A DNA stretch of 47,583 nt from the NCBI GenBank assembly GCA_009377695.1, contig WHTP01000030.1, positions 1 through 47,583 of the forward strand, given 5' to 3'. The notes under the pieces were generated by a model. The model worked only from the letters and a program-made list of their open reading frames with translations. It had not been told where the DNA came from and made no database searches. This document shows positions 110 to 43,340 of this stretch, in pieces (the stretch's first letter is position 1; every line of letters begins with the position of its first letter). Position numbers and translations under genes: made by a program. The stretch is from Hyphomicrobiales bacterium (GTDB taxonomy: Bacteria > Pseudomonadota > Alphaproteobacteria > Rhizobiales > Xanthobacteraceae).

Positions 110-274
110 CTAGTGTCCCGATTCCGAAGTTCGTACCATTTCGCAGCAGCCTCTTATACGAACTTCGAATCGAAGGACACTAGCAACTCTTTGAATCTAG
201 CGTGGTTTTGGTTCAGAAGCCCGCATGTCGGACTCGCCGCGAGAATGATGCGGACTTTTGAACCACCACACTAG
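110..274. repeat. Composite palindromic element, copy 1 (A-B)
   Basis: Two hairpins lie side by side. Hairpin A is at 110-183 and hairpin B at 197-274, joined by a 13-base AT-rich spacer (CAACTCTTTGAAT). Both begin CTAG and end CTAG; A starts CTAGTGTCC and B starts CTAGCGTGG. The arms are long near-perfect inverted repeats of about 26-30 bases around loops of about 20. Near-identical units recur at 14382, 16955, 37042 and 43180. It lies beyond the 3' end of bpt. Nothing recognisable lies in bases 1-109. Confidence 0.9.
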
Positions 275-283
275 ACTAGCCAA

Positions 284-1033
284 CTATCGTTCGATCCGTT
301 TCCAGCCGTCGCTGGTCAGCCGTTGCTGCGGCAGGAAGCGGCCCTTGTAATCCATCTTGCGCGAGCCGTGCACCCAGTAGCCGAGATAAACGTAGGGCAG
401 CTTCACGCGGCGTGCGCGATCGATGTGGTCGAGGATCATGAACGTGCCGAGCGACCGCGACCGGTAGTCCGCGTCAAAAAACGAGTAGACCATGGACAGC
501 CCGTCGCCGAGCACGTCGGTCAGCGCGACTGCCAGCAGCTCACCCGACCCGCGGCCATTGATCGCGCTGTCGGGCCCGCGGCGCCGGTACTCGATCATTC
601 GCGTCTCGACGTGGCTGTCCTCGACCATCATGGCGTAGTCGAGCACGGTCATGTCAGCCATGCCGCCGTCGCGGTGGCGCAAGTCGAGGTACGAGCGGAA
701 AACCGAATATTGTTCCGAGGTTGGCGCCGCGGTACGTAGATCGCCGATCAGGTCGCTGTTGCGTTGTTGCACGCGGCGCATGCTCCGCGTTGGCTCGAAT
801 TCATCTGCGATGACCCGCACCGACACGCAGGCCCGGCAGGTCTCGCAGGCTGGACGATAGGCGATCGATTGGCTGCGGCGGAATCCGCCATGGGTGAGCA
901 GATCGTTGAGCTCGGCCGCGCGCTCGCCGACCAGATGCGTGAATACCTTTCGCTCCTCGTGCCCAGGGAGATATGGGCACGGCGACGGAGCCGTCAGATA
1001 GAATTGCGGGGTGTTGCGTGAGTGATGTGTCAC
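284..1033 (-). CDS. bpt: Aspartate/glutamate leucyltransferase (Bpt)
   Basis: This 249-residue protein matches the bacterial leucyl/arginyl transferase family. That family moves leucine from Leu-tRNA onto proteins with N-terminal Asp or Glu, marking them for ClpS/ClpAP degradation in the cytoplasm. The N-terminal SPCPYLPG and ERKVFTHL segments and the cysteine cluster [16 protein letters not shown] are family hallmarks. The C-terminal half shows the GNAT-like acyltransferase fold, with [15 protein letters not shown]. Length is normal for the family. The start is GTG at 1033, which gives the expected N-terminus and has a loose purine-rich site (AGGGGCG) upstream. Repeat elements flank the gene on both sides. 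Identification is secure by sequence resemblance. Confidence 0.93.
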
Positions 1034-1081
1034 GGATTCGAATCGCCCCTTACCAGACTGGCCCTCTCACGGTGGACTCGT

Positions 1082-1248
1082 TTAGTGTGGTGGTTCAGAA
1101 ATTCTCTTCAGTTGCGCCGCGGGTCCGTCAAGGAATTTCGGAAACTAAACCATACTGGATGCATAGAGCTTGCTGGTGCCGTTCGAATCCGAAAATTCGC
1201 TATCGAAGGCGCGGCAGGGTTGAGCGAACTTCGAATTTCCAACACTAG
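1082..1248. repeat. Degenerate composite palindromic element (B-A)
   Basis: This is a decayed copy of the composite element in B-A order. B-like sequence runs 1082-1158 (starts TTAGTGTGGTGGTTCAGAA) and A-like sequence runs 1173-1248 (ends GAACTTCGAATTTCCAACACTAG-like). Arms carry many mismatches but the ends, spacer length and order match intact copies. It fills much of the 383-base gap between bpt and the RDD gene. Confidence 0.7.
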
Positions 1249-1301
1249 CACTAGGCTAGGATCGCCCGGAGCAGGCGTCCAGTCAAACGCCTTTACAACC
1301 G

Positions 1302-1420
1302 CTGGTGTCCCGATTCCGGAGGTCGTACGATTTCTCGGCGGCCTCCAATACACCAGCAACTTATTGATTTCAGTGTGCTTAGGTTCAGGAGTCCGGAATT
1401 CGGACTTGCCGCAGCACTAG
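1302..1420. repeat. Degenerate composite palindromic element (A-B), shortened
   Basis: A second decayed copy. A-like sequence is at 1302-1356 (CTGGTGTCCCGATTCC ... ACACCAG), with much of its right arm deleted. The spacer CAACTTATTGATT at 1357-1369 is identical to that of the copy at 16955. B-like sequence is at 1370-1420 with a deleted middle. Its terminal CACTAG supplies the stop codon of the RDD gene read on the minus strand. Confidence 0.75.
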
Positions 1421-1965
1421 CCGCGCCGCACCTCCCGGATCATCTGTGCGCGGGCGGGGTTATTGATCACCACGGTGCCAACCACCATGTCGTGCAGCAG
1501 CCGTTTACGATCGTTAAAAAGTCCGACCAGCAGGATGAGCGGCGTCAGGAATGAGGTGCTCAGCCAGAACAGCAGCCCGTGCACGGCGCCGAGAACGAAG
1601 TAGGCGGGCGTGCCGTACCAAGTACGCATTTCCAGATCCATGACGCGCATGCCGATGGTCGCAGAGGCCTCGCTTGCGAACGTGTACCCGTAGTAGCACA
1701 GCGCCCAGATGACGATCAGCGGCCAATAGAGTGGCGAGAGGAACACAAACAGAATCGCTGCGAGGCCAAGCGTGGCAATAGTCGCGGCCGCCATGAAGAG
1801 AGCGGCGAGGACGATAGGGACCACGATGATGGCGAGGTCGATGACGAAGGCAATCATCCGGCGCGCCAGAACACCTTCGAACAATTCCGGATTGGTCATG
1901 GGGTCGTAGGCGTGCGGCTTGAGCTCGATCGACACGCCGATCCGTCTCGGTTCGCTGTCGGTCAT
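1417..1965 (-). CDS. RDD-family membrane protein
   Basis: This 182-residue protein has an N-terminal cytoplasmic stretch, then LARRMIAFVIDL. The Arg and Asp of that segment are the RDD signature. Three to four hydrophobic segments follow, including FVIDLAIIVVPIVLAALFMA and YFVLGAVHGLLFWLS. The later RKRLLHDMVVGTVV is the typical RDD closing motif. The family is integral to the inner membrane and of unsettled function, possibly in transport. The start is the ATG at 1965; the reading frame stays open to 2514 but that extension is low-complexity out-of-frame sequence over ilvA. The stop codon is contributed by a repeat element. It is divergent from ilvA. Confidence 0.85.
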   Translation of the reverse strand: MTDSEPRRIGVSIELKPHAYDPMTNPELFEGVLARRMIAFVIDLAIIVVPIVLAALFMAAATIATLGLAAILFVFLSPLYWPLIVIWALCYYGYTFASEASATIGMRVMDLEMRTWYGTPAYFVLGAVHGLLFWLSTSFLTPLILLVGLFNDRKRLLHDMVVGTVVINNPARAQMIREVRRG

Positions 1966-2079
1966 GGTTTGAGTCCTTTGGGAGGTTCTTAGGAGATCCT
2001 TGCTATCCTCGAATCCAGCGCCAGATGGAGAGTAAACGGTCGCAACGCAAGAATCACGGGCATTTGTGGCGAGGTAAGG

Positions 2080-3303
2080 ATGACAGTCACGGCCGCCGAC
2101 ATCGACGCCGCCCGCCGCACCATTGCCGGCCAGATTCTGCGGACACCGATGCTGCCAGCGCCCAAGCTGTCGGCACTGACCGGGGCCGACATTTACGTCA
2201 AATACGAGAATCTTCAGGTTACCAATTCCTTCAAGGAACGCGGCGCACTCAACAAGCTCGCCTCGCTGACGGCGAAGGAGTGCAGAGGCGGCGTCATCGC
2301 GATGTCGGCCGGCAACCATGCCCAGGCAGTCGCCTATCATGCGGCGCGGCTCGGCATTCCCGCCACTATCGTCATGCCAGTGACGACGCCGACCGTGAAG
2401 GTCGACGCGACACAGGCGCACGGTGCGCACGTCGTGCTCGAAGGCGAAACGGTCGCAGAAGCGCAGGTGAAAGCCGAGTCGCTTGCGCGCGAACGCGGCC
2501 TTACCTGGGTGCATCCCTATGACGATGTCAGAGTGATCGCAGGGCAGGGGACGATCGCGCAGGAAATGTTCGAGGACGTCCCCGACCTTGACATGCTGGT
2601 GATCCCGATCGGTGGCGGCGGGTTGATCGCCGGCAACGCTGTTGCGGCGCGCGCGATCAACCCCTCGATCGAGGTCGTTGGTGCGGAAGCGGCGATGTAT
2701 CCGTCGTTCTGGAACGCCTTGACCGGCGAGCAGCGTCCGTTCGGCGGACCGACGCTGGCCGAAGGCATCGCGGTCAAAAATGTCGGCAAGCTGACGCTAC
2801 CCATCGTGCGCGAGCTCGTGTCGGAGATCGTGCTGCTGGATGAAGAATCGGTCGAGCGTGCAGTCAATGCCTATCTCACGCTGCAAAAGACGATGGCGGA
2901 AGGCGCCGGTGCTGCCGGACTGGCGGCGATGCTGGTGAAGCCCGAGCGCTTCCGCGGCCGCAAGGTGGGATTGATCTTGTGCGGGGGCAATATTGATCCA
3001 CGCATCCTCTCGACCATCATGGTGCGCGAGCTCGAGCGCGAATGCCGCATCGCCTCCTTTCGGCTCACGATCCCTGACCGCCCGGGCGTCCTCGGGCAAA
3101 TCGCAACAGTCCTCGGTGATCTCGGCGTCAATATCCTGGAGGTCGATCACCGCCGCCGGTTCCTCGACGTGCCAGCCAAGGGCGCGCGGCTCGATGTCAC
3201 CATCGAAACGCGTGGCCGTGCGCATTGCGACGAAATTTTTACAGTGCTGAAGCGCGAGGGCTACGACCCGGTGCGCATCCAGGCGGCAGCCGCGATGGAG
3301 TAG
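2080..3303 (+). CDS. ilvA: Threonine ammonia-lyase (threonine dehydratase)
   Basis: This PLP enzyme of 407 residues deaminates threonine (and serine) to 2-oxobutyrate, the entry to isoleucine synthesis. SFKERGALNK carries the PLP lysine (K52), and IGGGGLIAGN around residue 175 is the phosphate-binding glycine loop. A C-terminal ACT regulatory domain covers about residues 327-400 (LTIPDRPGVLGQIATVLGD). One ACT domain and about 400 residues match the shorter IlvA/TdcB type common in alphaproteobacteria. The start is ATG 2080, preceded by GAGGTAAGG. It is divergent from the RDD gene with about 115 bases between. Whether it is biosynthetic or catabolic cannot be told from sequence. Confidence 0.92.
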   Translation: MTVTAADIDAARRTIAGQILRTPMLPAPKLSALTGADIYVKYENLQVTNSFKERGALNKLASLTAKECRGGVIAMSAGNHAQAVAYHAARLGIPATIVMPVTTPTVKVDATQAHGAHVVLEGETVAEAQVKAESLARERGLTWVHPYDDVRVIAGQGTIAQEMFEDVPDLDMLVIPIGGGGLIAGNAVAARAINPSIEVVGAEAAMYPSFWNALTGEQRPFGGPTLAEGIAVKNVGKLTLPIVRELVSEIVLLDEESVERAVNAYLTLQKTMAEGAGAAGLAAMLVKPERFRGRKVGLILCGGNIDPRILSTIMVRELERECRIASFRLTIPDRPGVLGQIATVLGDLGVNILEVDHRRRFLDVPAKGARLDVTIETRGRAHCDEIFTVLKREGYDPVRIQAAAAME

Positions 3304-3390
3304 CGCTTCATCGTCGCGCTTCCTCCTGGGGCCATATCCGGACATGATTGCGTCGTAACTCGCGAATCACCCGGGTCGGGGGCGGACACC

Positions 3391-5862: not shown

Positions 5863-5913
5863 GCATGGCGCGTGGCTCTCTCGTCATCAGGATCACGCCG
5901 TCGGCAGGAGCAA

Positions 5914-7524
<1,611 letters not shown>

Positions 7525-8293: not shown

Positions 8294-8337
8294 TGATTGG
8301 CGCGACTGCCGTCCACGCGTGAGATGGAGTGATTTCA

Positions 8338-14381: not shown

Positions 14382-14547
14382 CTAGTGTGGCGGTTCAGAA
14401 GTCCGCATCATTCTTGCGGCGAGTCCGACATGCGGACTTCTGAACCTAAGCCACACTAGAATCAATGAGTTGCTAGTGTCCTTCGATTCCGAAGTTCGTA
14501 TAAGAGGTCGCTGCGAAATGGAACGAACTTCGGAATCGGGACACTAG
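14382..14547. repeat. Composite palindromic element, intact copy (B-A)
   Basis: B is at 14382-14459 and A at 14473-14547, separated by AATCAATGAGTTG (14460-14472). This is the exact reverse orientation of the copies at 110, 16955 and 37042. Both hairpins run CTAGTG to CACTAG. It fills most of the 288-base gap between the amidohydrolase and P450 genes, so a P450 promoter must lie within or very close to it. Confidence 0.93.
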
Positions 14548-14583: not shown

Positions 14584-15789
14584 ATGACGGTGCAATTCGA
14601 TTTCACCAGCCAGGACTATCTCCGCAATCCCGCCGCTGGGATTGAACGGCTCAGAGCGTCCGGGCCAGTCGTGGAGGTGCGCTTTCCGGTCATCATCGGG
14701 AAGACCTGGATCACGACCACGCAAGAGGCCGCCGACCTGATGTTGAAGGACAGTGAGACCTTCACGCTTCGCAAGGATGGTCAGGTTGCCGGAATGCGTT
14801 GGTGGATGCCGGGCATCATTCGCACGCTCGCCGATAACATGCTGACGAACGATGAGCCCGACCACACAAGGCTGCGCAGCATTGTCGACGAGGCCTTTCG
14901 CCGGCGGGCGATTCTCGACATGGAACCGCATATCCTTGCGATCGCGGAAGCGCTCGCCAATGACCTATTTGCGGACGGTACTCCTGCCGACCTCGTTGCC
15001 CGTTACGCACGGACGTTGCCGCTCTCCGTGATTTGCGAGCTGCTCGGCTTGCCGGCCTCCGACCGGCCGAGATTCATGGCCTGGGCCGGAAGCATGACCG
15101 GCGTCAGGAGCACGATTGGCGTCGTGTGGCGGATGATCTGGGGGGTGTCCGCAATCAAGCGGTATCTGGAAGCACACTTGGACAAGGCTCGCGAGACCGG
15201 CGGCGAAGGTCTGATCGCTGAACTCATCCGAGTGGAAAAGGATGGCTCGCGGCTCAGCCGCGACGAGATGGTATCGATGGTGTTGCTGCTTCTGTTTGCC
15301 GGGCACGAGACCACCACGCATCTCATCAGCGGGTCGGTGTTCGAGCTCTTGAAAAGCCGCGAGCTACGCGACTGGTTGGAGGAGGACTGGAAACGCGCCG
15401 ATCTGGCGGTCGAGGAATTCCTGCGCTTCGTCTCGCCGGCGCAGTTCACTAAACCGCGTTTCGTGCGAAAGGACACAGAGCTTTGCGGGGTGCGGCTGAA
15501 GCAAGGCGACAAGATCATGGCGATGCTGGGCGCGGCCAACCTGGATCCGGCTGCCAACGACCATCCCGAAAAGCTCGAACTCACAAGGCGGCCAAACCGC
15601 CACATCGCCTTTGGTACCGGCATCCATTTCTGCCTCGGCCACCAGCTCGCGCGTATCGAGGGTCGATGCGCGCTCAAGGCCCTGTTCACGCGCTGGCCCA
15701 AGCTTGAATTGGCGGTCGACTCCTCGCAGGTCCGGTGGCGGCGACAGCCGGGAATGAGGGCTATCGAAAAACTGCCGGTCGTGGGCTAA
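14584..15789 (+). CDS. Cytochrome P450
   Basis: A soluble bacterial P450 of 401 residues. The I-helix oxygen-binding motif AGHETTTH has its glycine at residue 240. The K-helix glutamate-arginine pair is EEFLRF. The haem-ligand loop FGTGIHFCLGHQLAR has the proximal cysteine at residue 350. It hydroxylates or dealkylates an organic substrate, taking electrons from a ferredoxin and reductase. A Rieske-type ferredoxin gene lies 1.4 kb downstream, but P450 partners are usually other ferredoxin types, so pairing is uncertain. ATG 14584 has a weak ribosome site. An amidohydrolase gene follows after 65 bases in the same direction. Confidence 0.93.
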   Translation: MTVQFDFTSQDYLRNPAAGIERLRASGPVVEVRFPVIIGKTWITTTQEAADLMLKDSETFTLRKDGQVAGMRWWMPGIIRTLADNMLTNDEPDHTRLRSIVDEAFRRRAILDMEPHILAIAEALANDLFADGTPADLVARYARTLPLSVICELLGLPASDRPRFMAWAGSMTGVRSTIGVVWRMIWGVSAIKRYLEAHLDKARETGGEGLIAELIRVEKDGSRLSRDEMVSMVLLLLFAGHETTTHLISGSVFELLKSRELRDWLEEDWKRADLAVEEFLRFVSPAQFTKPRFVRKDTELCGVRLKQGDKIMAMLGAANLDPAANDHPEKLELTRRPNRHIAFGTGIHFCLGHQLARIEGRCALKALFTRWPKLELAVDSSQVRWRRQPGMRAIEKLPVVG

Positions 15790-15854
15790 ACTGGCGACGA
15801 CAACCGGCGGGAATCGAAGAGCTAAGAAGAGCGCCGGTTGACGGAGGACCCCTG

Positions 15855-16958
15855 ATGAACATCGAACTGCGACAAGACGACGTCCGGTCGAACACCCGGC
15901 TCAAGATCGTCGACGTCGACATCCATCCCAAGAGCTCGGTCGAGGACCTCAAGCCCTATTTGAGCAAGCGCTGGTGGGATCACTTGGTGACCTATGGAGC
16001 GCGCCAGCGGCAGGGCTATCTCAAGGGCTTTCCCTATCCCAAGATGCAGCCGATGGCCTCGCGCCGCGATAGCTGGCCGCCCGACGGCGGGCTGCCGGCG
16101 AGCAATCTCGGCTTCATGAAGCAGCAGTTCCTTGACGCCTATCCGATCGAATACGCGATCATGAATCCGCTGTCGCCGACCGGGCAGGGCGACCAGAATT
16201 CCGAATTCTCCGCCGCCATGGCCTATGCGGCGAACGAGTTCCAGCTCGAGGGCTGGCACAAGCAGGATCAGCGGCTCTTGGCGTCGGTCGTCGTGCCGTT
16301 CGAGGATGGCGATGCCACCCGCGTCGAGGTCAAGCGCCGCGCCGTCGACAAGCGTTTTGCGCACGTGCTGCTGAAGACCCGCACCAACGATCTGCTCGGC
16401 AAGAAGCAATATTGGCCGGTCTACGAGGCCGCAATCGAAGCAGGACTTCCGATCGGCATCCATGTGTTCGGAACCAGCGGGCGGCCTGCGAGCAATACCG
16501 GCTGGCCGTCGTTCTACATCGAGGACATGACCGAGCATGCGTCATGCTGCCAGGCGCAGGTCGCGAGCCTCGTGCTCGAAGGTGTGTTCGAGCGCTATCC
16601 GGAGCTGAAGATCGTCATGATCGAGGCCGGCTTCGGCTGGATGCCCTCGCTCGGCTGGCGCATGGACAAGAACTGGAAGAAGCTCAAGGACGAGGTCCCC
16701 CACCTCAAGAAGGCGCCGTCGGAATATATGCGCGAGCACATCTGGGTCTCGACCCAGCCGATGGAGGAGACCGACGCGCCGCAGCAGCTCATCGACACCA
16801 TGACATGGATCGGTTGGGACAAGATCATGTTTTCGTCGGACTATCCGCACTGGGATTTTGACGATCCGTTCCGGGCCCTGCCGCCGTCGCTCGACGAGAA
16901 GACGCGCAACATGATTTTCTGCGAGAATGCGCGGTCGCTCTACAAGCTCGACGTCTAG
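15855..16958 (+). CDS. Amidohydrolase-2 family metal-dependent hydrolase
   Basis: This 367-residue paralogue of the protein at 13231 shares the start motif VDVDIHPKSS, GIHVFGTSG near residue 200, MIEAGFGWMPSLGWRMDKNW near 258 and FSSDYPHWDFDDP near 325. It is predicted to be a cytoplasmic TIM-barrel hydrolase or decarboxylase. I chose ATG 15855 because GGAGG sits 7 bases upstream; the frame is open further upstream over the P450 3' end but looks non-coding there. The stop codon TAG (16956-16958) is the first TAG of a palindromic element. It is probably in one transcript with the P450. Confidence 0.87.
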   Translation: MNIELRQDDVRSNTRLKIVDVDIHPKSSVEDLKPYLSKRWWDHLVTYGARQRQGYLKGFPYPKMQPMASRRDSWPPDGGLPASNLGFMKQQFLDAYPIEYAIMNPLSPTGQGDQNSEFSAAMAYAANEFQLEGWHKQDQRLLASVVVPFEDGDATRVEVKRRAVDKRFAHVLLKTRTNDLLGKKQYWPVYEAAIEAGLPIGIHVFGTSGRPASNTGWPSFYIEDMTEHASCCQAQVASLVLEGVFERYPELKIVMIEAGFGWMPSLGWRMDKNWKKLKDEVPHLKKAPSEYMREHIWVSTQPMEETDAPQQLIDTMTWIGWDKIMFSSDYPHWDFDDPFRALPPSLDEKTRNMIFCENARSLYKLDV

Positions 16959-17122
16959 TGTCCCGATTCCGAAGTTCGTTCCATTCGCAGCGGCCTTTTA
17001 TACGAACTTCGGAATCGAAGGACACTAGCAACTTATTGATTCTAGTGTGGCTTTGGTTCAGAAGTCCGCATGTTGGACTCGCCGCAAGAATGATGCGGAC
17101 TTCTGAACCAAAGCCACACTAG
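16955..17122. repeat. Composite palindromic element, intact copy (A-B)
   Basis: A is at 16955-17028 and B at 17042-17122, with spacer CAACTTATTGATT. The B arm is a perfect 30-base inverted repeat around a 21-base loop. The left CTAG overlaps and supplies the upstream gene's stop codon. Confidence 0.95.
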
Positions 17123-17137: not shown

Positions 17138-17184
17138 AGCATGATCTTGTCCGAAAACCGGTTCCCACTTTTCGGGATCATGCT
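17138..17184. repeat. RIME-like palindrome
   Basis: AGCATGATC and GATCATGCT bracket a core of GTCCGAAAACCGGTTCCCAC and a CGGG segment, forming an imperfect hairpin. The sequence matches, from memory, a palindromic intergenic family widespread in Rhizobiales (RIME/RPE type). It ends 3 bases before the start codon of the Rieske gene. Confidence 0.75.
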
Positions 17185-28357: not shown

Positions 28358-29383
28358 ATGATCCGGTTGACACTGATTGCAGCCGCAATCGCGGGCTCGC
28401 TCGTGCCGTCTGCGCGCGCCGCCGACGTTGCCGATTTCTACAAAGGCAAGACCGTTCGGGTGGTCATCGGGACCAACGTCGGCGGGACCTATGGGGTCTA
28501 CGGCCAGCTTGTGGCCCGGCATTTCGGCCGCTTCGTCCCGGGCAATCCGACGGTCGTGATGCAGTCGATGCCGGGGGCGGGCGGCTTCACCGCGCTCAAT
28601 TGGCTCGGCACCACTGCGCCACGCGACGGGACCGTCATCACTGTCGCCCACACCAATATCGTGCACGAAGGTCTGCTCAATAAGGAAGCAAAATTCGATC
28701 CGCGCGAGTTCCTGTGGGTGGGGCGCTTTTCGACTTTTGCGTCGGTTGGCGTCGCCAGCAAAAGGTCCGGTGTCCGCAAGCTCGCCGATGCCAAGCTGCG
28801 CGAGGTTATGGTCGGTGCACCGGCCGCGCAGGCTATTCCGGCACAGTCGCCCATTATCCTCAACAAGATCGCCGGCACGAAATTCAAGATCGTTTTGGGA
28901 TATCGTTCGACAGGTGATAGCTTGCTGGCGCTTGAGCGGGGCGAAGTGGACATGGCGGGGACCTCGATGGACGCGCTGCGCGCGCTACACTGGCCAAAGC
29001 TCGAAAGCGGCGACTTGATCCCGATTTTCGTGCAGGGCGTCCGGCGGCTGAAGGAGTTTCCCGACGTGCCGACCCTGGGGGAGTTTGGCAATGACGACAT
29101 CGAGAAGGCGTTTCTCAGCGTCTTCAACATCACGGCGGAGGTCGGACGTTCGCTGGCAACGCCGCCCGGCGTGCCGGGCGATCGCCTCGCCGCGCTGCGC
29201 AAGGCCTATGAGGAGATGGTCGCGGACGCGGCGTTCCTCGCCGACATCAAGAAGCTGGGCATCGAGCTCGACCTGTTGCCGGGCGCGAAGCTGCAGGAGG
29301 TGATCGGCGCCTCGATGCGGATGTCGCCACAGACGCAGGAACAGGCCCGCAAGTTCTACGAGGATTTGTTCAAAGGTCATTAG
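28358..29383 (+). CDS. TctC-type periplasmic binding protein (long subfamily)
   Basis: A 341-residue protein with a signal peptide ending ARAA, then VADFYKGKTVRVVIGTNVGG, FVPGNPTVVMQSMPGAGG and APRDGTVI. It is a clear tandem paralogue of the next gene, sharing AQSPIILNKIAGTKFK, ALERGEV and FPDVPTL. The two differ from others in the window by QSMP instead of NMPG at the third motif. RBS TGAGGAC lies before ATG 28358. A further paralogue starts 25 bases downstream. Ligand unknown. Confidence 0.88.
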   Translation: MIRLTLIAAAIAGSLVPSARAADVADFYKGKTVRVVIGTNVGGTYGVYGQLVARHFGRFVPGNPTVVMQSMPGAGGFTALNWLGTTAPRDGTVITVAHTNIVHEGLLNKEAKFDPREFLWVGRFSTFASVGVASKRSGVRKLADAKLREVMVGAPAAQAIPAQSPIILNKIAGTKFKIVLGYRSTGDSLLALERGEVDMAGTSMDALRALHWPKLESGDLIPIFVQGVRRLKEFPDVPTLGEFGNDDIEKAFLSVFNITAEVGRSLATPPGVPGDRLAALRKAYEEMVADAAFLADIKKLGIELDLLPGAKLQEVIGASMRMSPQTQEQARKFYEDLFKGH

Positions 29384-29408
29384 TCTCAAGGATATCGAAG
29401 GAAATGCC

Positions 29409-30464
29409 ATGAGGCGCTTGCGCTCGATCGTCATGCTTGCCGTCGTCATGTTTGCCGTCGCGCTGGGAGCGCTTGCGGTGAGTCCGCTCGCGCATGCTCA
29501 ATCTGTCGCCGACTTCTACCGCGGCAAGACGATCCGCTTGATCATCGGCACCAGCGTCGGCGGCGCCTATGGCGTCTTCAGCCAGCTCGCATCGCGCCAT
29601 ATCGGCCGATTCATTCCGGGCTCGCCGACCGTCATCATTCAGTCGATGCCGGCTGCCGGCGGGCTGGTTGCGCTCAACCATCTCGGTAGCGCAGCGCCAC
29701 GCGACGGCACCGTGATCACGCTCATCCATGTCACCGTCGTTCAGGAAGGCCTGTTCAACCCCGCCGCCACCTTCGACCCGGGCGCGTTCCATTGGATCGG
29801 CCGGCTGGCGAGCCTCGAATTCCTGGGGCTGGCATCGCAGAAGTCGGGCGTCCGCTCGCTTGACGACGCCCGCAATCGCGAGGTCGTCGTTGGCGCCCCG
29901 GGATTGACCAACGTGCCGGCTCAGTCGCCGCTCATCCTCAACCGGATTGCGGGGACGAAGTTCAAGCTCATCTCGGGCTACAGCGGCACCGGACAGACCT
30001 TCATTGCGCTTGAACGCGGCGAGGTCGAGCTGGCGGCGGGGTCGATGGACGGCATCCGCGCGCTGCATTGGGACAAGCTCAAGAGCGGAGAATTCGTCCC
30101 GATCTTTGCGCAGGCCGGCCGGCGGCTGAAGGATTTTCCGGATGTCCCGACGCTGCTCGAGTTCAGCAACAACGAGGCCGAGAAGGCGTTCCTGAGCGTG
30201 TTCTCGATCACGGCCGACATCGGCCGTTCGCTGGCTGCGCCGCCCGGCGTACCGAAAGATCGTCTCGATGCGTTGCGCAGCGCCTTCGACGCAATGATCG
30301 CTGACCCGGCGTTCAAGGCCGACGTTGAGAAGCTGCGGATTGAGCTTAATCCCATCAGCGGCCCGAAGCTCGATCAATTGGTTGCGCAGACTGTGAAGAT
30401 GTCCGGCGAGACGCGGGCGAGCGCGAGGGCGTTCTACGACGACCTGTTCAAAGGCATCAAATAG
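29409..30464 (+). CDS. TctC-type periplasmic binding protein (long subfamily)
   Basis: A 351-residue protein whose signal peptide ends AHAQ, followed by VADFYRGKTIRLIIGTSVGG, IPGSPTVIIQSMPAAGG and APRDGTVI. It is the closest relative in the window of the preceding gene and shares its ending (FYDDLFKG against FYEDLFKG). It sits second in a three-gene run of binding proteins, with the next starting 19 bases on. Start ATG 29409 with GAAGGAA upstream. Ligand unknown. Confidence 0.88.
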   Translation: MRRLRSIVMLAVVMFAVALGALAVSPLAHAQSVADFYRGKTIRLIIGTSVGGAYGVFSQLASRHIGRFIPGSPTVIIQSMPAAGGLVALNHLGSAAPRDGTVITLIHVTVVQEGLFNPAATFDPGAFHWIGRLASLEFLGLASQKSGVRSLDDARNREVVVGAPGLTNVPAQSPLILNRIAGTKFKLISGYSGTGQTFIALERGEVELAAGSMDGIRALHWDKLKSGEFVPIFAQAGRRLKDFPDVPTLLEFSNNEAEKAFLSVFSITADIGRSLAAPPGVPKDRLDALRSAFDAMIADPAFKADVEKLRIELNPISGPKLDQLVAQTVKMSGETRASARAFYDDLFKGIK

Positions 30465-34975: not shown

Positions 34976-35008
34976 ATCGTTCCAGCGAAACCTGAGAGGG
35001 ACGGCGGT

Positions 35009-35861: not shown

Positions 35862-36060
35862 GAAAGCCCGCTGCTTGCCTTAGGTCCGCAGGACCATCGT
35901 CAAAATCGTTAAAGAAGTCTAGGCTTGGATGGTATCGCGTCGCAAGTCCGGCGAGGATCACAATGCCGCGTGCTCCGTCGGAAACAGGGCTTGCACGAGG
36001 GACACCGCCGCCCTAATCCGCTCATTTCCGAGGCCATTTTACGATAGCGAGGGGATTTCG

Positions 36061-36459: not shown

Positions 36460-36470
36460 TCGAGGCGATA

Positions 36471-36540
36471 ACGTCCGTGTCCCGGACGCCATCAGCGCGT
36501 TCACGCGCGTCGTCGACGCGCTATGGCCCGGGGCACGCGA
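36471..36540. repeat. Partial GTCCCGG-type intergenic repeat
   Basis: CGTCCGTGTCCCGGACG begins a partial copy of the family seen at 13031; the right arm is diverged (GGCCCGGGGCACG). It fills the gap between two convergent genes. Confidence 0.5.
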
Positions 36541-36547
36541 GCTGTTG

Positions 36548-36949: not shown

Positions 36950-37041
36950 GACTGACTGTCCTCCTGAGGCCTGAAAGCGAGAAGGCGGAGTTTGCTCCGC
37001 CTTCATGTAGTCATTGATGCAGGTCGGTTCCAACGGCTGCG

Positions 37042-37207
37042 CTAGTGTCCCGATTCCGAAGTTCGTACCATTTCGCGGCGGCCTGTTATACGAACTTCGG
37101 GATCGAAGGACACTAGCAACTCTTTGAATCGAGTGTGGCTTTGGTTCAGACGTCCGCATGTTGGACTTGCCGCGAGAATGATGCGGACTTCTGAACCGCC
37201 ACACTAG
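37042..37207. repeat. Composite palindromic element, intact copy (A-B)
   Basis: A is at 37042-37116 and B at 37130-37207 with spacer CAACTCTTTGAAT, identical to copy 1. The B left end has CGAG instead of CTAG. The right CTAG supplies the stop codon of the methyltransferase gene at 37204 on the minus strand. Confidence 0.95.
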
Positions 37208-38019
37208 CCGCGCGTCGCCCTGAACGTAGTGCCGCCGGCGGAGCCTTCCATGCTATTGCCGTCGATCTTGCCGGTGTACTTCGTGCCGCCGGCGGTAAAG
37301 GCGATCTCGGCGCCGGTCAGCTTGCCGTCGGTGATCGGCACTTCCTTGCCTCCGATCACGGCCGTTCCGTTGATCACCTGGAACCGCTGCTGCAACCGCA
37401 GCTCACCGTTATCAAGCTTCCAGGTGCCCGCGACCCGGGCCGGGACTATCCAGTAATGCGCGGTGCAATATTGACAGCCTTCGAAGCCGTTGACGGTGGT
37501 GTCCGGCCGCCAGTCGCCCATATCGAAGGAATTTGACGCCACGCGGGTGCCGGGCCGCATTTCCAGGATGGTCGGCCGCAGCTTCGCGTTCAGGCTGGTG
37601 AGCAGATACAGCGTGATGACGTTGGCCTTCGAGAAATCGGTCTTGAAGATGTCGCCGTTGATGAAGGTCGCACGGTCGCTGACTTTTTCCTTCTCGGCAT
37701 TGGCCTGCGAGAGCGCGACCATGTCCGGATTGTATTCGACGCCGAACGCCTGCGCACCGCGCTTGGCGGCGGCGATCACGGTGCGCCCATCGCCCGAGCC
37801 GAGGTCGTAGTGGACGTCGTTCGCAGAGACCTTGGTGAGATCCAGCATCTTCTCGACCAGCGCCTGCGGCGTCGGTACCCAGATCACGTCCTTGCCCGGC
37901 TGGCCGACCTGCGGCTCGAACGGCTTCTTGCTCGGCTGCGCCAGCGCAATGCCCAAGGTCGCCGTAGCCGCGACGGCGGCGAACGCCAGCGAGCGGGTGA
38001 CCGATTGTGTGAACCTCAT
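37204..38019 (-). CDS. Predicted exported methyltransferase-fold protein, paralogue 1
   Basis: The 271-residue protein starts with a signal peptide (MRFTQSVTRS, a hydrophobic core, then IALAQ). A class I SAM-dependent methyltransferase domain follows: VIWVPTPQALVEKML, motif I DLGSGDGR at 72-79, acidic residue E94 in GVEYNPDM, and SNSFDMGDW near 161. A beta-rich C-terminal domain has two cysteines (C181, C184) that could form a disulfide. The methyltransferase part resembles the FAM173-type lysine methyltransferases. The start ATG 38019 has CGGAGG upstream. The TAG stop is from a palindromic element. Paralogues are at 43206 and 44224. Target is unknown. Confidence 0.82.
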   Translation of the reverse strand: MRFTQSVTRSLAFAAVAATATLGIALAQPSKKPFEPQVGQPGKDVIWVPTPQALVEKMLDLTKVSANDVHYDLGSGDGRTVIAAAKRGAQAFGVEYNPDMVALSQANAEKEKVSDRATFINGDIFKTDFSKANVITLYLLTSLNAKLRPTILEMRPGTRVASNSFDMGDWRPDTTVNGFEGCQYCTAHYWIVPARVAGTWKLDNGELRLQQRFQVINGTAVIGGKEVPITDGKLTGAEIAFTAGGTKYTGKIDGNSMEGSAGGTTFRATRG

Positions 38020-38078
38020 TGAGAACCTCCGATAAGTGCGCGGCGCCCGCGCGGCGCCGTAGACTGCCCGCCGCCGGG

Positions 38079-38107
38079 ACATTAGCCGGGCGCGGTATGC
38101 CTGTCAG
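38079..38107 (-). promoter_or_regulatory. Predicted promoter of exported methyltransferase paralogue 1
   Basis: Read on the minus strand, CTGACA (38107-38102) and TAATGT (38084-38079) are separated by exactly 17 bases, about 60 bases before the ATG. The same hexamers and spacing precede paralogue 3. Confidence 0.6.
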
Positions 38108-38260
38108 CAGCGTTGCCGAGGGATTTGGCGATCAAATTCCAGCGATGGCGGGGAATAAGATTTGCAGCGACATCATGGCGTTGCACGGGCGCCTTGCGAA
38201 ACTTGCCAAGGCGTTGGAACCGGCACAAAGTAGTGAAAACGAATAAGCAACAGGGAGCTC

Positions 38261-39679
38261 ATGACGGCGCCGCGCCAGATCAAGCTTGGAATGTTTCTGC
38301 GCCCGGCGGCGCATCACATCGCCGGATGGCGCCACCGGGATGCCTGGGCCGATGGCGGGCTGAATTTTGCGAAATATGTCGAGACTGCGAAAGCGGCGGA
38401 GCGGGGGCTGTTCGATCTGTTGTTTTCTGCCGATGCCCTGACCGGCGAACGTTACGACCGCGAGACCCTGTCGCGCACGACCTACGTTGCGTGGATCGAC
38501 CCGATGTCGCTGCTCACGGCACTGGCGCCGGTGACGCAGAACATCGGTCTCGTCTGCACATCGACCACGACCTACGACGAGCCCTATCACATCACCCGCC
38601 GCTTCGCGTCGCTCGACCTCATCAGCGGCGGACGCTCCGGCTGGAATCTTGTCACCTCGGCCAACGATGCGGAGGCGAAGAATTTCGGCCGCGAGGACCA
38701 CATGCCGAAGGAGGTGCGCTACCGGCGTGCCCGCGAGTTTGTCGAGGTGGTGCGCGGCCTGTGGGATTCGTGGGACGATGACGCCTTCCTCTTCGACAAA
38801 GCGGACGGCCGCTTCTATGACCCCGACCGCCGCCACGTGCTCGACCATGTCGGAGAATTCTTCAAGGTGAGGGGACCGCTGACGGTCTCCCGCTCGCCGC
38901 AGGGCCAGCCGGTGGTGGTGCAGGCCGGCGCGTCGGACGATGGCCGACAACTGGCGGCCGAGACCGCTGAAGTCGTGTTCTGCGCGCACCAGTCGATCGA
39001 TGGAGCGCGGCAATATTATCGTGACGTCAGGGAGCGCGCATCGCGTTGCGGCCGCGATCCGGATCATCTCAAGGTGATGCCTGGCCTCGGCGTCATGGTC
39101 GCGCCGACCCGGCAGGAGGCGGAGGACAGGTATCAGGAGCTGCAGGACCTCATCCATCCTGAGGTGGGCGTCGCGCTGCTGTCCAAATATCTGTTCTTCG
39201 ATCTGACCGGCTACGACATCGATGGTCCGGTGCCGGTCGTCAAACAAAGCGGCCAGCCATCGCGCTCGCAACTCCTGAGCGAAACCGCGCGCGCGGAGGG
39301 TTTGACGATCCGCCAGCTCTATCAGCGCATCGCCGGCGGGCGCGGCCATTTCCAAGCCGTCGGCTCACCCAAGGACGTCGTCGACCTGATGGAGGAATGG
39401 TTCACCACCGGCGCCGCCGACGGCTTCAACGTCATCCCGCCGTTCTTCCCGAATTCGCTCGACGAATTCAACGCGCTGGTCGTGCCCGAGCTGCAACGGC
39501 GCCGCCTTTACCGCACCGCCTATGAAGGGAAGACGCTACGGGAGAATCTCGGATTGCCGCGTCCGGCGAGCCGCTACGCGCATGGCGCGACGAAAGGGAA
39601 GCGGCCGAATAAAAGGCAGATGAGGGGCCCCCTCCTTTCCCCCGCAAGCGCGGGGAGGGTGGGCGGGGTAACAAAATAA
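38261..39679 (+). CDS. LLM-class flavin-dependent monooxygenase (NtaA/SnaA/DszA type)
   Basis: A 472-residue bacterial luciferase-like monooxygenase using reduced flavin from a separate reductase. Landmarks are IKLGMFLRP, GLFDLLFSADAL, VCTSTTTYDEPYHITRRFASLD, SGGRSGWNLVTS and PVVVQAGASDDGR. Characterised relatives attack nitrilotriacetate, dibenzothiophene sulfone and similar compounds. The last ~20 residues are read through a GC-rich hairpin repeat and probably are not part of the ancestral protein. ATG 38261 has AGGGAG upstream. Two TctC-type genes follow within 30 bases, suggesting uptake of its substrate. Confidence 0.9.
   Translation: MTAPRQIKLGMFLRPAAHHIAGWRHRDAWADGGLNFAKYVETAKAAERGLFDLLFSADALTGERYDRETLSRTTYVAWIDPMSLLTALAPVTQNIGLVCTSTTTYDEPYHITRRFASLDLISGGRSGWNLVTSANDAEAKNFGREDHMPKEVRYRRAREFVEVVRGLWDSWDDDAFLFDKADGRFYDPDRRHVLDHVGEFFKVRGPLTVSRSPQGQPVVVQAGASDDGRQLAAETAEVVFCAHQSIDGARQYYRDVRERASRCGRDPDHLKVMPGLGVMVAPTRQEAEDRYQELQDLIHPEVGVALLSKYLFFDLTGYDIDGPVPVVKQSGQPSRSQLLSETARAEGLTIRQLYQRIAGGRGHFQAVGSPKDVVDLMEEWFTTGAADGFNVIPPFFPNSLDEFNALVVPELQRRRLYRTAYEGKTLRENLGLPRPASRYAHGATKGKRPNKRQMRGPLLSPASAGRVGGVTK
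39628..39666 (+). repeat. GC-rich hairpin repeat inside the monooxygenase 3' end
   Basis: CCTTTCCCCCGC-AAGC-GCGGGGAGGG is an imperfect inverted repeat of the same type as 31490 and 41883. It lies within the coding frame just before the stop at 39679. Confidence 0.55.
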
Positions 39680-39706
39680 AACAAGCCACTGACGGGAGCG
39701 AACGCG

Positions 39707-40786
39707 ATGGTGAAGCCACTTACAGGTGGAATTCTATGTGCTGCGCTGTCGGGCGCGGTGCTGCTCGGCGCCAGCCCGGCGATGGCCGATGCGGTTGCCG
39801 ATTTCTATCGCGGCAAGCAGATCCGTGTAATCGTGCGGACGTTGCCCGCGACCGACTATGACGCCTATTCACGGCTGATCGCCCGTTTCATGGGCAAGTA
39901 CATTCCGGGCCATCCGTCGATGATCGTGGTGAACATGACCGGTGGAGGCGGGATCATCGCCGCCAATTACATGGCCGAGGTGGCGCCGCGGGACGGCACG
40001 GTGATCGGCATCGTCAGTCAGGGGCTTGCCGTCGATCAGACTCTCGGAAAGTCGCCGCAGCTCAAGGCCAACCTGCGCGACTTCAACTGGATCGCCAATG
40101 TCGTGTTCTCGAACCAGCTCCTGGTCACGTGGCACACGTCGGAGACCAAGACGCTCGATCAGGCGAAACAGCGCGTCACCACCATCGGCACCACCGGCGC
40201 GGGCTCCGCGTCGGTGCAGTATCCGCTATTTTACAACAGCATCCTCAAAACGAAGTTCAAGATCATCTTTGGCTACCGCAGCGGTGCTGAGATCGATCTC
40301 GCGATGGAGCGCGGGGAGGTCGAAGGCCGTGGCACCAATCCATATTCGTCCTACATGGCCTCGCATCCGACCTGGATTCCGCAAAAGAAGATCATTCCGC
40401 TGGTGCAGGCCGGCGTCGAGAAGGAGGCCGAGCTGCCGAACGTTCCGCTGATCCTCGATCTGCCGGTGCGTCCCGAGGACCGGCCGCTGCTTCAGTTCAT
40501 GGCGCGCGCCGCGACCGTCGGCCGGCCGCTGGCGACAACGCCGGGCGTCCCTTCCGACCGGGTGGCGGCGCTGCGGCGCGCGTTCGACGCGGCGGTCCGC
40601 GATCCGGAATTCATCGCGGCAGCGGCCAAGGAGAAACTGCAAGTGCGTCCGCAGTCCGCCGACAAGATCGCGGAGATCATTTTCGGGCTGCTCGATACGC
40701 CCACAGATGTGCGCGAACGGATGAAGACGGCGCTGGCGTCGAGGGACCTGCACAAGCTCGATCGGCCGGCAGCCAAGAAGCAATAG
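39707..40786 (+). CDS. TctC-type periplasmic binding protein (long subfamily)
   Basis: A 359-residue protein with signal peptide ending AMADA. Then VADFYRGKQIRVIVRTLPAT, YDAYSRLIARFMGKYIPG, HPSMIVVNMTGGGG and VAPRDGTVI. The usual glycine pair after the first strand is replaced by an LPATDYD loop, which may alter the ligand pocket. It is a tandem paralogue of the next gene, sharing IGTTGAGS, MERGEVEGRG and TTPGVP. RBS CGGGAG lies before ATG 39707. Downstream of the flavin monooxygenase in an operon. Confidence 0.88.
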   Translation: MVKPLTGGILCAALSGAVLLGASPAMADAVADFYRGKQIRVIVRTLPATDYDAYSRLIARFMGKYIPGHPSMIVVNMTGGGGIIAANYMAEVAPRDGTVIGIVSQGLAVDQTLGKSPQLKANLRDFNWIANVVFSNQLLVTWHTSETKTLDQAKQRVTTIGTTGAGSASVQYPLFYNSILKTKFKIIFGYRSGAEIDLAMERGEVEGRGTNPYSSYMASHPTWIPQKKIIPLVQAGVEKEAELPNVPLILDLPVRPEDRPLLQFMARAATVGRPLATTPGVPSDRVAALRRAFDAAVRDPEFIAAAAKEKLQVRPQSADKIAEIIFGLLDTPTDVRERMKTALASRDLHKLDRPAAKKQ

Positions 40787-40806
40787 GAATCATCGGAGCG
40801 GAAACA

Positions 40807-41868
40807 ATGACCAGGTTCCTTCTCACGATACTGGCTGGCGTGCTTTGTCTCGGGCCGGGTCCGGCTGCGGCCGACTCCGTCGCCGGCTTCTACAAGGATA
40901 AGCAGATCCGGTTCGTCGTGCGCACCACCGTCGGCGGCGACTATGACCAGTATACGCGGCTCATCGCCCGCTTCATCGGCAAGTACATTCCCGGTAATCC
41001 GTCGATCGTGGTCGTCAACATGCCGGGCGGCGGCGGCATCACCGCCGCGAACTACATGGCGCAGGTTGCGCCCCGCGACGGCACCGTGATCGGCATCGTC
41101 AGCCAGGGGCTCGCGATGGATCAGGCACTTGGGGTCTCGCAGCAGCTCAAGGCCGATCTCAAGGAATTCAATTGGATCGCCAACGTCGTCCATTCGAACC
41201 AGTTGCTGGTCGTGTGGCATACCTCGCCGACCAAGACGATCGAGGACGCGAAGAAGCGCGTCACCACCATCGGCACCACGGGTGCCGGCTCGGTATCGGT
41301 GCAGTATCCGGCGTTCTACAACAATGTGCTTGGCACCAGGTTCAAGATCGTGTTTGGCTATCCGGGCGGCCAGTTCATCGACCTCGCAATGGAACGCGGC
41401 GAGGTGGAGGGACGCGGCGCCAATCCCTATTCCGGCTGGATGGCATCGAAGCCGACTTGGATTCCGGAAAAGAAGATCATCCCGCTGATGCAGGCCGGGA
41501 TCGAGAAGGAGCCGGCGCTGCCGCACGTGCCGTTGATCACCGATCAGCCGGTTCGCGACGAGGACCGGCCGCTGCTGCGTTTCATGGCGAATTCATCGTC
41601 AATTGGGCGCCCGCTGGCCACGACGCCCGGCGTTCCGGCCGACCGCGTAGCGGCACTACGCCGTGCCTTTGCGGCGACCGTCCGCGATCCGGAGTTCATC
41701 GCCGCGGCCAAGAAAGAGAATATGCAGATCAAGCCGCAGAGCGCGGAGGTCCTGCTGAAGATTATCCTCAGCGTCCTCAATGCGCCTCAGGATGTGCGCG
41801 ACCGTATGAAGGTCGCGCTGCAGCCGCGTGACGAGCACACCCAGAAGATCAAGATCAATAAGAAATAG
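40807..41868 (+). CDS. TctC-type periplasmic binding protein (long subfamily)
   Basis: A 353-residue protein, tandem paralogue of the preceding gene, with signal peptide ending AAAD. It has VAGFYKDKQIRFVVRTTVGG, YDQYTRLIARFIGKYIPG, NPSIVVVNMPGGGG and VAPRDGTVI. Unlike its neighbour it keeps the double-glycine loop. The tail is short and lysine-rich. It begins 20 bases after the previous stop and ends 14 bases before a perfect hairpin, so it closes the monooxygenase operon. Confidence 0.88.
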   Translation: MTRFLLTILAGVLCLGPGPAAADSVAGFYKDKQIRFVVRTTVGGDYDQYTRLIARFIGKYIPGNPSIVVVNMPGGGGITAANYMAQVAPRDGTVIGIVSQGLAMDQALGVSQQLKADLKEFNWIANVVHSNQLLVVWHTSPTKTIEDAKKRVTTIGTTGAGSVSVQYPAFYNNVLGTRFKIVFGYPGGQFIDLAMERGEVEGRGANPYSGWMASKPTWIPEKKIIPLMQAGIEKEPALPHVPLITDQPVRDEDRPLLRFMANSSSIGRPLATTPGVPADRVAALRRAFAATVRDPEFIAAAKKENMQIKPQSAEVLLKIILSVLNAPQDVRDRMKVALQPRDEHTQKIKINKK

Positions 41869-41882
41869 GGGTGTGCATCGAA

Positions 41883-41911
41883 GAGCCCTCTCCCTGCAAG
41901 GGAGAGGGCTC
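41883..41911 (+). terminator. Perfect hairpin ending the monooxygenase operon
   Basis: GAGCCCTCTCCCT and AGGGAGAGGGCTC form a 13-bp stem with a three-base loop. No T-run follows, so it may act as a transcript-end stabiliser rather than an intrinsic terminator. Confidence 0.65.
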
Positions 41912-41997
41912 AAGACAACAGCCTTCAGGATGCAAGTCGAGTGTGACTGATCTACCTGATATCAATCACGGTCAGTGACTAATCCGAATGATTGTGT

Positions 41998-42255
41998 TCA
42001 GCGGCGACCTTCGCATTCCACTTCTTCTTTGTAGCTGCCGTCACGCTTCCGCTCACGTTTCACCTTGCAGCCCTGATGGTAGAACTCCTCCTTGTACTCA
42101 CGGCGCTGTTGAGCGTATGCGTCGCGATTATAGTCGCGGTATTCACTCCGCCAGCGGCCTCTGCCACTTTCGTCCTTCCAGGGGTCAGCGGATACCGCGC
42201 CGCCAGTTGCCAAGGCGATTGCCGCACAGATTGCAAGGCTCAGTTGCGTTTTCAT
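41998..42255 (-). CDS. Small secreted basic protein
   Basis: An 85-residue protein with a signal peptide (MKTQLSLAICAAIALATGG, cleaved after VSA). The mature part of about 60 residues is rich in Arg, Lys, Glu and Tyr. It has two cysteines (GCKVKRE and VECEG) near the end that could form one disulfide. I prefer ATG 42255, with GGAG six bases upstream, over the ATG at 42267. No family is recognised; it may be an envelope stress or metal-binding peptide. The interval to the next gene (42268-42472) shows nothing supported. Confidence 0.7.
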   Translation of the reverse strand: MKTQLSLAICAAIALATGGAVSADPWKDESGRGRWRSEYRDYNRDAYAQQRREYKEEFYHQGCKVKRERKRDGSYKEEVECEGRR

Positions 42256-42472
42256 CGTGTTCTCCATTGTCTGCGAGCTAAAACGCCACTTGAGCCAATT
42301 GGTTCAGAAGCTCAGGATGCAGGACAATATGGACCGAAACACTGAGCCGGAGCGCCGTGCGTCCCTGATTATCCGGCTCGCATCCAATACGGCGGCACCG
42401 CGTAGTAATCGCAAAATTCTTGCGTTCCCGGCGGTGGCTTGCGGAAACCGTTTGAAATCTTTGAGAAAATCG

Positions 42473-43168
42473 TCAAGCGACTTTGCGTTGCGTCGCCAGC
42501 CCGTCGAGATGCGCCAGCACGTCCTCGATATGCATCACGTCGGCATATTTGTGATGCAGGTCGAACAAGTTGACCTTGTGTGTGATCATCGAGCGGTCGT
42601 AGGTGCACTCTTCGACGACGGTATTGTGGAAGCCGTAGGAATAGGCGTCCACAGTGGAGGCGCGCACGCAGCCTGATGTGCTTTCGCCGCAGATGATCAG
42701 GCTGTCGATGCCTTTCATCTGCAGGTGCGCGATCAGCGGCGTGCCGAAGAACGCCGAGGCACGCTCCTTGTAGATCACGAGCTCGCCCGGCTGCGGCGCA
42801 AGCTCCGCCTTGATGTCGTAGACGTCGTCGGCCAGCTTGCCGAGATTGCGATTGGTCGAGTGCACGCCGCGGGTATCGACGTGCCGCGTCGAGTAGATGA
42901 TCGGCACGCCGGCGCGGCGAGCCGCCGCGAACAGCGTCTGAGTATCGGGCAGGGCGCGCCAGGCATTCTCGCCGCAGGAACCGGAGAATTCGCGGTCGAC
43001 CTCGGCCACCGGGCGGCTCCCGCCGAGATAGGCCTTGTTGTAAAGATCGATCGCCAGCACCGCCGGATTGTTCCCGACATAGATCTTCCGGCGGTACGCT
43101 TGATAGATCTGCAGCGTTTCCGCGTCGATCACATCTTTCCAGCAGTAGTCTTCAAAATCGCGTGCCAT
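42473..43168 (-). CDS. Isochorismatase-family hydrolase
   Basis: A 231-residue cysteine hydrolase, paralogue of the one at 33930. The triad is D41 in LAIDLYNK, K134 in LVIYKERASAFFG, and C167 in ESTSGCVRASTVDA. It shares the HKVNLFDLHHKYADVM ending region and stops soon after, giving the usual family length. It probably cleaves an amide or carbamoyl substrate in the cytoplasm. ATG 43168 has GTGGAG upstream; a composite palindromic element begins 12 bases before the start, so its promoter lies in or beyond the element. Confidence 0.87.
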   Translation of the reverse strand: MARDFEDYCWKDVIDAETLQIYQAYRRKIYVGNNPAVLAIDLYNKAYLGGSRPVAEVDREFSGSCGENAWRALPDTQTLFAAARRAGVPIIYSTRHVDTRGVHSTNRNLGKLADDVYDIKAELAPQPGELVIYKERASAFFGTPLIAHLQMKGIDSLIICGESTSGCVRASTVDAYSYGFHNTVVEECTYDRSMITHKVNLFDLHHKYADVMHIEDVLAHLDGLATQRKVA

Positions 43169-43179
43169 GATGGACTCCA

Positions 43180-43340
43180 CTCGTGTGGTGGTTCAGAAGT
43201 CCGCATCATTCTCGCGGCGAGTCCGACCTGCGGACTTCTGAACCAAAGCCACTAGATTCAAAGGTTTTTAATGTCCCGATTCCGAAGTTCGTAAAAGAGG
43301 GCGCTGCGAGATGGTACGAACTTCGGAATCGGGACATTAG
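43180..43340. repeat. Composite palindromic element, intact copy (B-A) inside a gene end
   Basis: B is at 43180-43255 and A at 43268-43340, joined by an ATTCAAAGG-type spacer. Ends have drifted to CTCG, TTAA and ATTAG. The element overlaps the 3' end of the methyltransferase gene, which reads through A and stops inside B at 43206-43208. Confidence 0.92.

Follow-up and report, generated by a model that had tools for sequence, protein, structure and literature searches.

A CTAG-bounded two-hairpin repeat of Alphaproteobacteria with the features of a nonautonomous, MITE-like mobile element

Results

The repeat unit in the window

The window analyzed here is the whole of a 47,583-nt contig, WHTP01000030.1, from the draft assembly GCA_009377695.1 of a Hyphomicrobiales bacterium (contig C103 of genome G000 in our numbering; 5.85 Mb, 235 contigs, 95% complete). 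It carries seven copies of a composite palindromic repeat of about 166 bp, built on the plan CTAG-hairpin A-CTAG-13-nt spacer-CTAG-hairpin B-CTAG and without coding capacity, the whole unit being taken up by the hairpins and the 13-nt spacer. A first-pass annotation, made from the letters of the window, had placed copies at these positions and described them as a repeated two-hairpin unit; our analysis confirms both, as well as its view that A-B and B-A are the same unit in opposite orientations. Five copies are largely complete (starting at 110, 14382, 16955, 37042, and 43180) and two are decayed (1082 and 1302). The order is A-B at 110-274, 16955-17122, 37042-37207, and, in decayed form, 1302-1420; it is B-A at 14382-14547, 43180-43340, and, again decayed, 1082-1248. 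All five of the larger copies had been called intact; the copy at 43180 is less so, with outer ends CTCG and TTAG, 2 nt lost near the right end of B, and a spacer of 11 nt. Open reading frames (ORFs) mentioned below are defined by length alone.

110..183, + strand: copy 1, hairpin A (fold z -8.3)
184..196, + strand: copy 1, spacer CAACTCTTTGAAT
197..274, + strand: copy 1, hairpin B (fold z -5.5); a second CTAG (276-279) lies one base outside the right end
1082..1248, - strand: copy 2, decayed, B then A
1302..1420, + strand: copy 3, decayed, with truncated A, spacer, and truncated B; the right CTAG (1417-1420) overlaps the stop codon of ORF 1417-2514 (-)
14382..14547, - strand: copy 4, complete; B 14382-14459, spacer 14460-14472, A 14473-14547 (folds z -11.2, -8.8)
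16955..17122, + strand: copy 5, complete; A 16955-17028, spacer 17029-17041, B 17042-17122 (folds z -9.0, -12.9); the left CTAG supplies the TAG stop of ORF 15735-16958 (+)
37042..37207, + strand: copy 6, complete; A 37042-37116, spacer 37117-37129, B 37130-37207 (CGAG at its inner end); the right CTAG supplies the stop of ORF 37204-38082 (-)
43180..43340, - strand: copy 7, nearly complete, with mutated ends; B 43180-43255, spacer about 11 nt, A about 43267-43340

The hairpins measure 74 to 81 nt, with CTAG at both feet. Six of them, from the copies at 110, 14382, and 16955, were folded and gave z scores of -5.5 to -12.9, and none of 200 shuffled sequences folded equally well.

Abundance and subfamilies in the host genome

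The unit is a high-copy repeat. Genome-wide, the pattern of the A arm matched 350 times (2 in a backward control) and that of the B arm 518 times (0 in the control), each B hairpin having two arms, and the inner junction GGACACTAG-N12-14-CTAGTGTGG has 107 exact matches in the host genome and none in its control. A generic detector of CTAG hairpins found 110 in 0.80 Mb of the same genome and none in that sequence read backwards. We read 1.575 Mb in full, which is 27% of the assembly and consists mostly of contigs with listed search matches, where density may run high; it contains 220 places belonging to three subfamilies, 117 of them full length (91 of F1, the subfamily of the window, 21 of F2, and 5 of F3). 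By a rough estimate, the genome holds a few hundred copies that make up about 1% of its DNA. The arm sequences of F2 and F3 differ from those of F1, and the plan is identical. Full F1 copies are 69 to 99% identical to their consensus, with a median of 94.6%, suggesting that much of the spread is fairly recent.

That A and B always occur together, as first proposed, is nearly correct. F1 matches 164 places in 1.57 Mb. A single alignment spans both A and B at 101 of them, a further 38 are fragments lying close to a second fragment or to the other arm, and the remaining 25 show no partner within 250 bp, so neither hairpin is frequently found alone. An initial sample of 0.80 Mb had left 38 places unpaired; some of these proved to belong to other subfamilies, and the rest are mostly truncated, interrupted by another copy, or left with remains of the spacer or of B. 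There are also deletion forms that have lost the inner arms and retain the outer arm of A and that of B; about 10 of their junctions, compared by eye, are all different, and these forms therefore look like dead ends rather than mobile forms. In the copy at L025:1497-1665 (G000:C20), hairpin B has the opposite of its usual orientation to A, as an in-place inversion of the palindrome would produce.

Distribution beyond the host genome

Sixteen of the 61 nearest-kin genomes (the host included) have matches, and ten have at least 14, numbers that count alignments from at most 13 scored candidates per genome and are not copy numbers; three genomes of the same genus have 3, 0, and 0. Scanning 84,980 species, each represented by one genome, for the exact junction returned at least 106 stretches. 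Among the 80 listed, many of which are loci from the same genomes, 73 bear titles of groups that we place, from general knowledge, in the Alphaproteobacteria, and 7 are titled only "Proteobacteria bacterium"; hosts among these listed matches include Parvularculaceae, Paramagnetospirillum, Devosia, Hyphomicrobium, Afipia, Nitrobacter, and Acidiphilium. The 80 loci contain 81 units, 52 of them with both CTAG ends, and all 52 are 162 to 169 bp long. When 299 genomes were sampled evenly across the phylum, the exact junction, which diverged copies would escape, occurred in the host genome only and was absent from the 112 others of its class and from the 186 outside the class. The design recurs patchily, with near-constant length, in scattered and distantly related Alphaproteobacteria; Rhodopseudomonas rhenobacensis is another carrier.

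The window subfamily has no match on plasmids or phages. When five of the class-wide units were tried on plasmids, three matched large Roseibium/Labrenzia plasmids, one of these three also matched an Agrobacterium plasmid, and the other two had no match; the two plasmid contexts that were opened have no annotated transposase nearby. A further subfamily, with TGCCC / TACCGC hairpins, is seen in a Bradyrhizobium metagenome-assembled genome (L227:240-500), where it forms a CTAG-bounded array with a third hairpin, and in genome G007 an F2 unit (L122:15709-15876) lies in the intergenic gap that matches the window F1 copy at 110-274.

Relationship of hairpins A and B

The two hairpins had been described as unrelated, which our comparison contradicts. 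Both start CTAG-TG and have much the same core in both arms (GAAGTTCG / GAAGTCCG in F1, ACATTCGC in both in F2, and GACGCTTG / GACGTTCG in F3). The resemblance extends to the loops: across 51 units from many hosts, loop A compared with the reverse complement of loop B scored -0.08 on average, a value reached in none of 500 trials with shuffled loops (mean -3.64, standard deviation 0.33) and in none of 500 with partners swapped between units (mean -1.63, standard deviation 0.36), whereas loop A against the unturned loop B scored -4.35. Judged by arms and loops together, B is an inverted and diverged copy of A, and the unit is thus best described as a short element with inverted repeats of about 76 bp, each an interrupted palindrome with an unequal bulge. 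The homology of A with the reverse complement of B gives the unit the terminal inverted repeats of a miniature inverted-repeat transposable element (MITE).

The stems covary. A class-wide alignment was made from 50 of the 52 units with intact ends plus one window unit; the two omitted are L251, similar to other rows, and the second unit of L233. In it, stem positions are paired in 99.2% of cells and both sides have changed in 194 of 2396, a level reached by none of 500 shuffles; helices 1 and 3 are partly forced to pair by the search pattern and the requirement for intact ends, and helices 2 and 4 are free. GANTC, which we take to be a methylation site, is present in the left arm of A (A1 columns 11-15) in 41 of the 51 class-wide units and in the spacer junction in 25 of 51, too incompletely to build on.

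Insertion at CTAG

Copies are bounded by CTAG on both sides and appear to have been inserted at that word. Both outer ends read CTAG in 77 of 116 full copies with flanks, the remainder being mostly one base off at one end, and tandem units have one CTAG in common. Six nested insertions have both halves of the interrupted unit readable, and in all six the inserted copy is flanked by CTAG on both sides; the single CTAG of the interrupted unit accounts for both flanks in five, and the sixth (C162b) has an extra CTAG-T on the left.

Comparison with the same-genus genome G001 reveals insertion polymorphism, as the first-pass annotation had anticipated for orthologous loci: G001 has matching DNA without units at 1082/1302, 14382, 16955, 37042, and 43180. 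The best empty site is that of 37042, with GGTT-CTAG-CCGCGCGTC in G001 against CTAG-unit-CTAG-CCGCGCGTC in the window; the two agree exactly on the right, and on the left they differ by about 12 bases between GGTT and the CTAG. At 16955, G001 has ATAG, the stop codon of the same gene, and its junctions there and at 1082/1302, 14382, and 43180 are less clean than at 37042. The flanks, the nesting, and the one empty site that is exact on one side indicate a target site duplication, as in MITEs. The duplicated word may be the 4-bp CTAG or the 2-bp TA within it, and a CTAG target fits both alike; were movement single-stranded, the second CTAG could instead be part of the element.

Placement in the genome

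CTAG is scarce in this genome: the part read has 996 occurrences where base composition predicts 5299, about 5-fold more, and copies of the element contain or adjoin 480 of the 996. Copies avoid ORFs (11 of 116 lie inside one) more than free CTAGs do (293 of 516). At first sight, copies also seemed to favor stop codons (25 of 116); outside ORFs, the ratio of 25:80 is no different from the 60:163 of free CTAGs (p 0.59), and the preference was dropped. Neighboring genes are oriented evenly around 108 copies (30/28/26/24), as they are around other gaps (206/200/192/181). This pattern can be accounted for if insertion at CTAG is random and harmful insertions are then lost, and the positions of the copies do not point to a role in gene expression.

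Search for the moving enzyme

CTAG is a target of IS630, IS870, and IS481, and IS481 has TGT ends as well. None of the families of insertion sequence (IS) that we tested gave a parent. The host assembly has no match to DDE_3, which set aside an IS630 (Tc1/mariner) parent at 95% completeness. DDE_5, for IS701, is absent from the host genome and present in 3 of the 10 element-rich genomes (those with at least 14 matches), which does not fit the copy number. The rve domain, used for IS481, has two weak matches in the host genome, both below the cut-off and at loci without CTAG.

The first-pass annotation had linked the unit to IS5-type transposases and proposed a search for an IS with matching ends. 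The host genome does contain one complete CTAG-flanked IS5-like element, the only one found there (L141, G000:C143; about 880 bp), and its 15-bp inverted ends, GGTCTGTAGACATTC, are not those of the unit; hairpins were detected at none of the five DDE_Tnp_1 loci of the genome, and on these loci an IS5-like parent was rejected. What stands of that link is the CTAG/YTAR target in common, and nothing further is supported.

A Y1 (HUH) carrier fared no better. The one Y1 gene of the host genome is flanked by a different palindrome, of the GTAG type, and the detector found no intact CTAG hairpin at 24 Y1 loci; six of the ten element-rich genomes, three of them at least 99% complete, have no Y1_Tnp match. 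The gene is RAYT-like (L138, G000:C25:11251-11547), and a deletion form of the unit (L138:294-367) lies about 1 kb from it with another gene between.

Among proteins common to the 80 listed class-wide loci, no shared transposase appeared in the 25 largest clusters, as judged by first residues and without a family search, and the biggest of these clusters has 6 proteins from 5 loci. The sole wide gap seen in a unit, 525 bp, lies inside hairpin A and not between A and B (L013:795-1320, G000:C13); the insert has the ends GGTGCTGTCCTAA...TTAGGACAGCACC and looks like the remnant of another mobile element.

Comparison with known repeats

Bacterial MITEs, of which Correia/NEMIS is an example, resemble the unit in their length of 100 to 200 bp, noncoding nature, inverted repeats, two-sided target word, high copy number, and nested insertions. 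The unit differs from them in that each of its inverted repeats is a bulged palindrome with CTAG on both sides, in its near-constant length across distant hosts, and in that no parent IS was found. We regard it as MITE-like in working and set apart by its palindromic ends and fixed length. RIME1 of Rhizobium is described as having two large palindromes and a length of about 106 to 112 bp, and its comparison with the unit is by that description.

Repetitive extragenic palindromic sequences (REPs) are 20 to 40 bp long with GTAG or CGTC tags, according to the accessible text of the source (PMC3733652). As far as the accessible parts of the literature describe them, REPs, their bacterial interspersed mosaic element (BIME) and REPIN assemblies, and the associated RAYT systems are like the unit in consisting of palindromes with a fixed tetranucleotide, often in inverted pairs, in many copies, and mostly intergenic (PMC3733652; PMC3116915, PMC2817692). 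Unlike them, the unit has hairpins of about 75 nt with CTAG at both feet, outside the REP range of size and tag, and no Y1 gene flanked by the unit was found. Br-REP1 and Br-REP2 of Bradyrhizobium are likewise palindromic intergenic repeats of related bacteria, with Br-REP1 lying between two flanking palindromes; their published consensus sequences differ from the unit, and the accessible part of the source mentions no CTAG ends (PMC5082802). Bru-RS1 and Bru-RS2 of Brucella, also alphaproteobacterial palindromic repeats, are given in the accessible text as 103 to 105 bp long, shorter than the unit, and as preferred sites of an IS with a YTAR target (PMC2267715, PMC2266754); they are set apart from the unit by that description only, not by sequence.

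The design was not found in Rfam or in the open literature searched, which mostly does not cover subscription papers, nor was the unit found there as a known RIME or BIME subtype, RIME1 and Bru-RS having been compared by available description. At the gathering score, the window has no Rfam match. Copy 6 by itself gave a single hit, at chance level. Subthreshold matches near copy 5 to the Brucella small RNA families BASRCI27 and BASRCI408 were discarded, as they are carried by a palindrome at 17139-17183. This separate palindrome, GCATGATC...GATCATGC, stands beside copy 5 and is present at the same place in G001.

Discussion

The unit is probably a nonautonomous, MITE-like mobile element of about 166 bp, moved in trans at CTAG by a putative enzyme, and we put the probability of this reading at roughly 80%. 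High copy number, two-sided CTAG, insertion polymorphism, nesting, stem covariation, the even orientations of neighboring genes, and the inverted homology of A and B all support it. Insertion at CTAG and a nonautonomous nature, both proposed by the first-pass annotation, are supported, and its interpretation as a whole is partly supported. A transposase supplied in trans would recognize the ends through the outer CTAG-TGT and the shared core (such as GAAGTTCG) that is present in all four arms, and would insert the unit at CTAG to give CTAG-unit-CTAG. The inner arms are kept and covary, and the forms that retain only the outer arms look like one-offs, suggesting that movement depends on the inner as well as the outer arm of each hairpin.

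Several observations weigh against this reading. A simple MITE needs its outer ends only, and the conserved inner arms and loop lengths are not explained by ordinary MITE logic. No autonomous partner was found, as no A-B pair encloses a gene in the 27% of the host genome read, and among the five transposase families tested there is no copy with matching ends, most other families not having been searched. None of the empty sites is clean on both sides. In addition, at 5 of 232 outer ends (0.15 expected by chance), a second CTAG lies one base further out, giving CTAG-N-CTAG, which plain duplication of CTAG does not explain; these include copy 1 and the sixth nested case, and are as follows, those outside the window being in G000. 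One-base differences among the end tetramers can be plain decay.

Window 271-279: CTAG-N-CTAG at the right end of copy 1
C13:33348-33521: unit with a CTAG-N-CTAG end
C130:11939-12104: unit with a CTAG-N-CTAG end
C162b:2361-2526: unit with a CTAG-N-CTAG end (sixth nested case)
C78:39355-39523: unit with a CTAG-N-CTAG end

A rival reading is that the unit travels as a folded single strand, carried by an HUH-type transposase (Y1, RAYT/REPIN- or IS200/IS605-like); the hairpins would then be required, and the second CTAG would be part of the element and not a duplication. In its favor, both ends form bulged hairpins delimited by a tetranucleotide, the stems covary with the inner arms included, the outer-arm-only deletion forms look like dead ends, and a deletion form of the unit lies about 1 kb from the Y1 gene of the host, beyond another gene. 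That gene has palindromes of another type around it, the 24 Y1 loci have no intact CTAG hairpin by our detector, and most of the element-rich genomes have no Y1_Tnp match, and on balance we regard single-strand transfer by such an enzyme as unlikely.

Movement by a transposase of the IS5/IS427-like group, to which we take IS711 to belong, seems to us a doubtful prospect. In its favor, the accessible text of one report gives CTAG/YTAR targets for IS711 (PMC2266754), and the host genome has a complete CTAG-flanked IS5-like element; against it, the ends of that element are not those of the unit, and the DDE_Tnp_1 loci are without hairpins. It is very improbable that the unit is instead a functional RNA or DNA signal (terminator, mRNA stabilizer, or nucleoid site) spread by selection with mobility secondary, since its strong fold as RNA (z -14.8), the class-wide stem covariation, and the 3'-end repeats Br-REP1/2 described for related bacteria in the accessible text of PMC5082802 are set against even neighbor orientations, stop-codon overlap no commoner than for free CTAGs, copies that nest in one another and come and go between same-genus genomes, and an exact core absent from all 298 other genomes sampled in the phylum.

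Returning to the MITE-like element moved in trans, the recurrence of the same design of about 166 bp in scattered Alphaproteobacteria suggests that one enzyme system has acted across a wide range of hosts on a substrate that has hardly changed. We tentatively speculate, with low confidence, that the unit represents an alphaproteobacterial class of elements in which both ends must fold as long bulged hairpins, with length, loop size, and inner arms fixed; that the mover may be a single-copy or domesticated enzyme outside the families tested; and that scarcity of CTAG in the host may confine the element and make existing copies the main sites at which new ones land. Identification of the mover would show why both arms are retained in each end hairpin of so short an element, something that plain cut-and-paste transposition would not need.

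Other features of the window

Apart from the repeat, the window contains paralogous ORFs in repeated blocks at 28424-30347, 39785-41870, and 45444-46287, and a second repeated set of ORFs at 37403-38082, 43357-44210, and 44224-45294, marking the region as one of gene family expansion.

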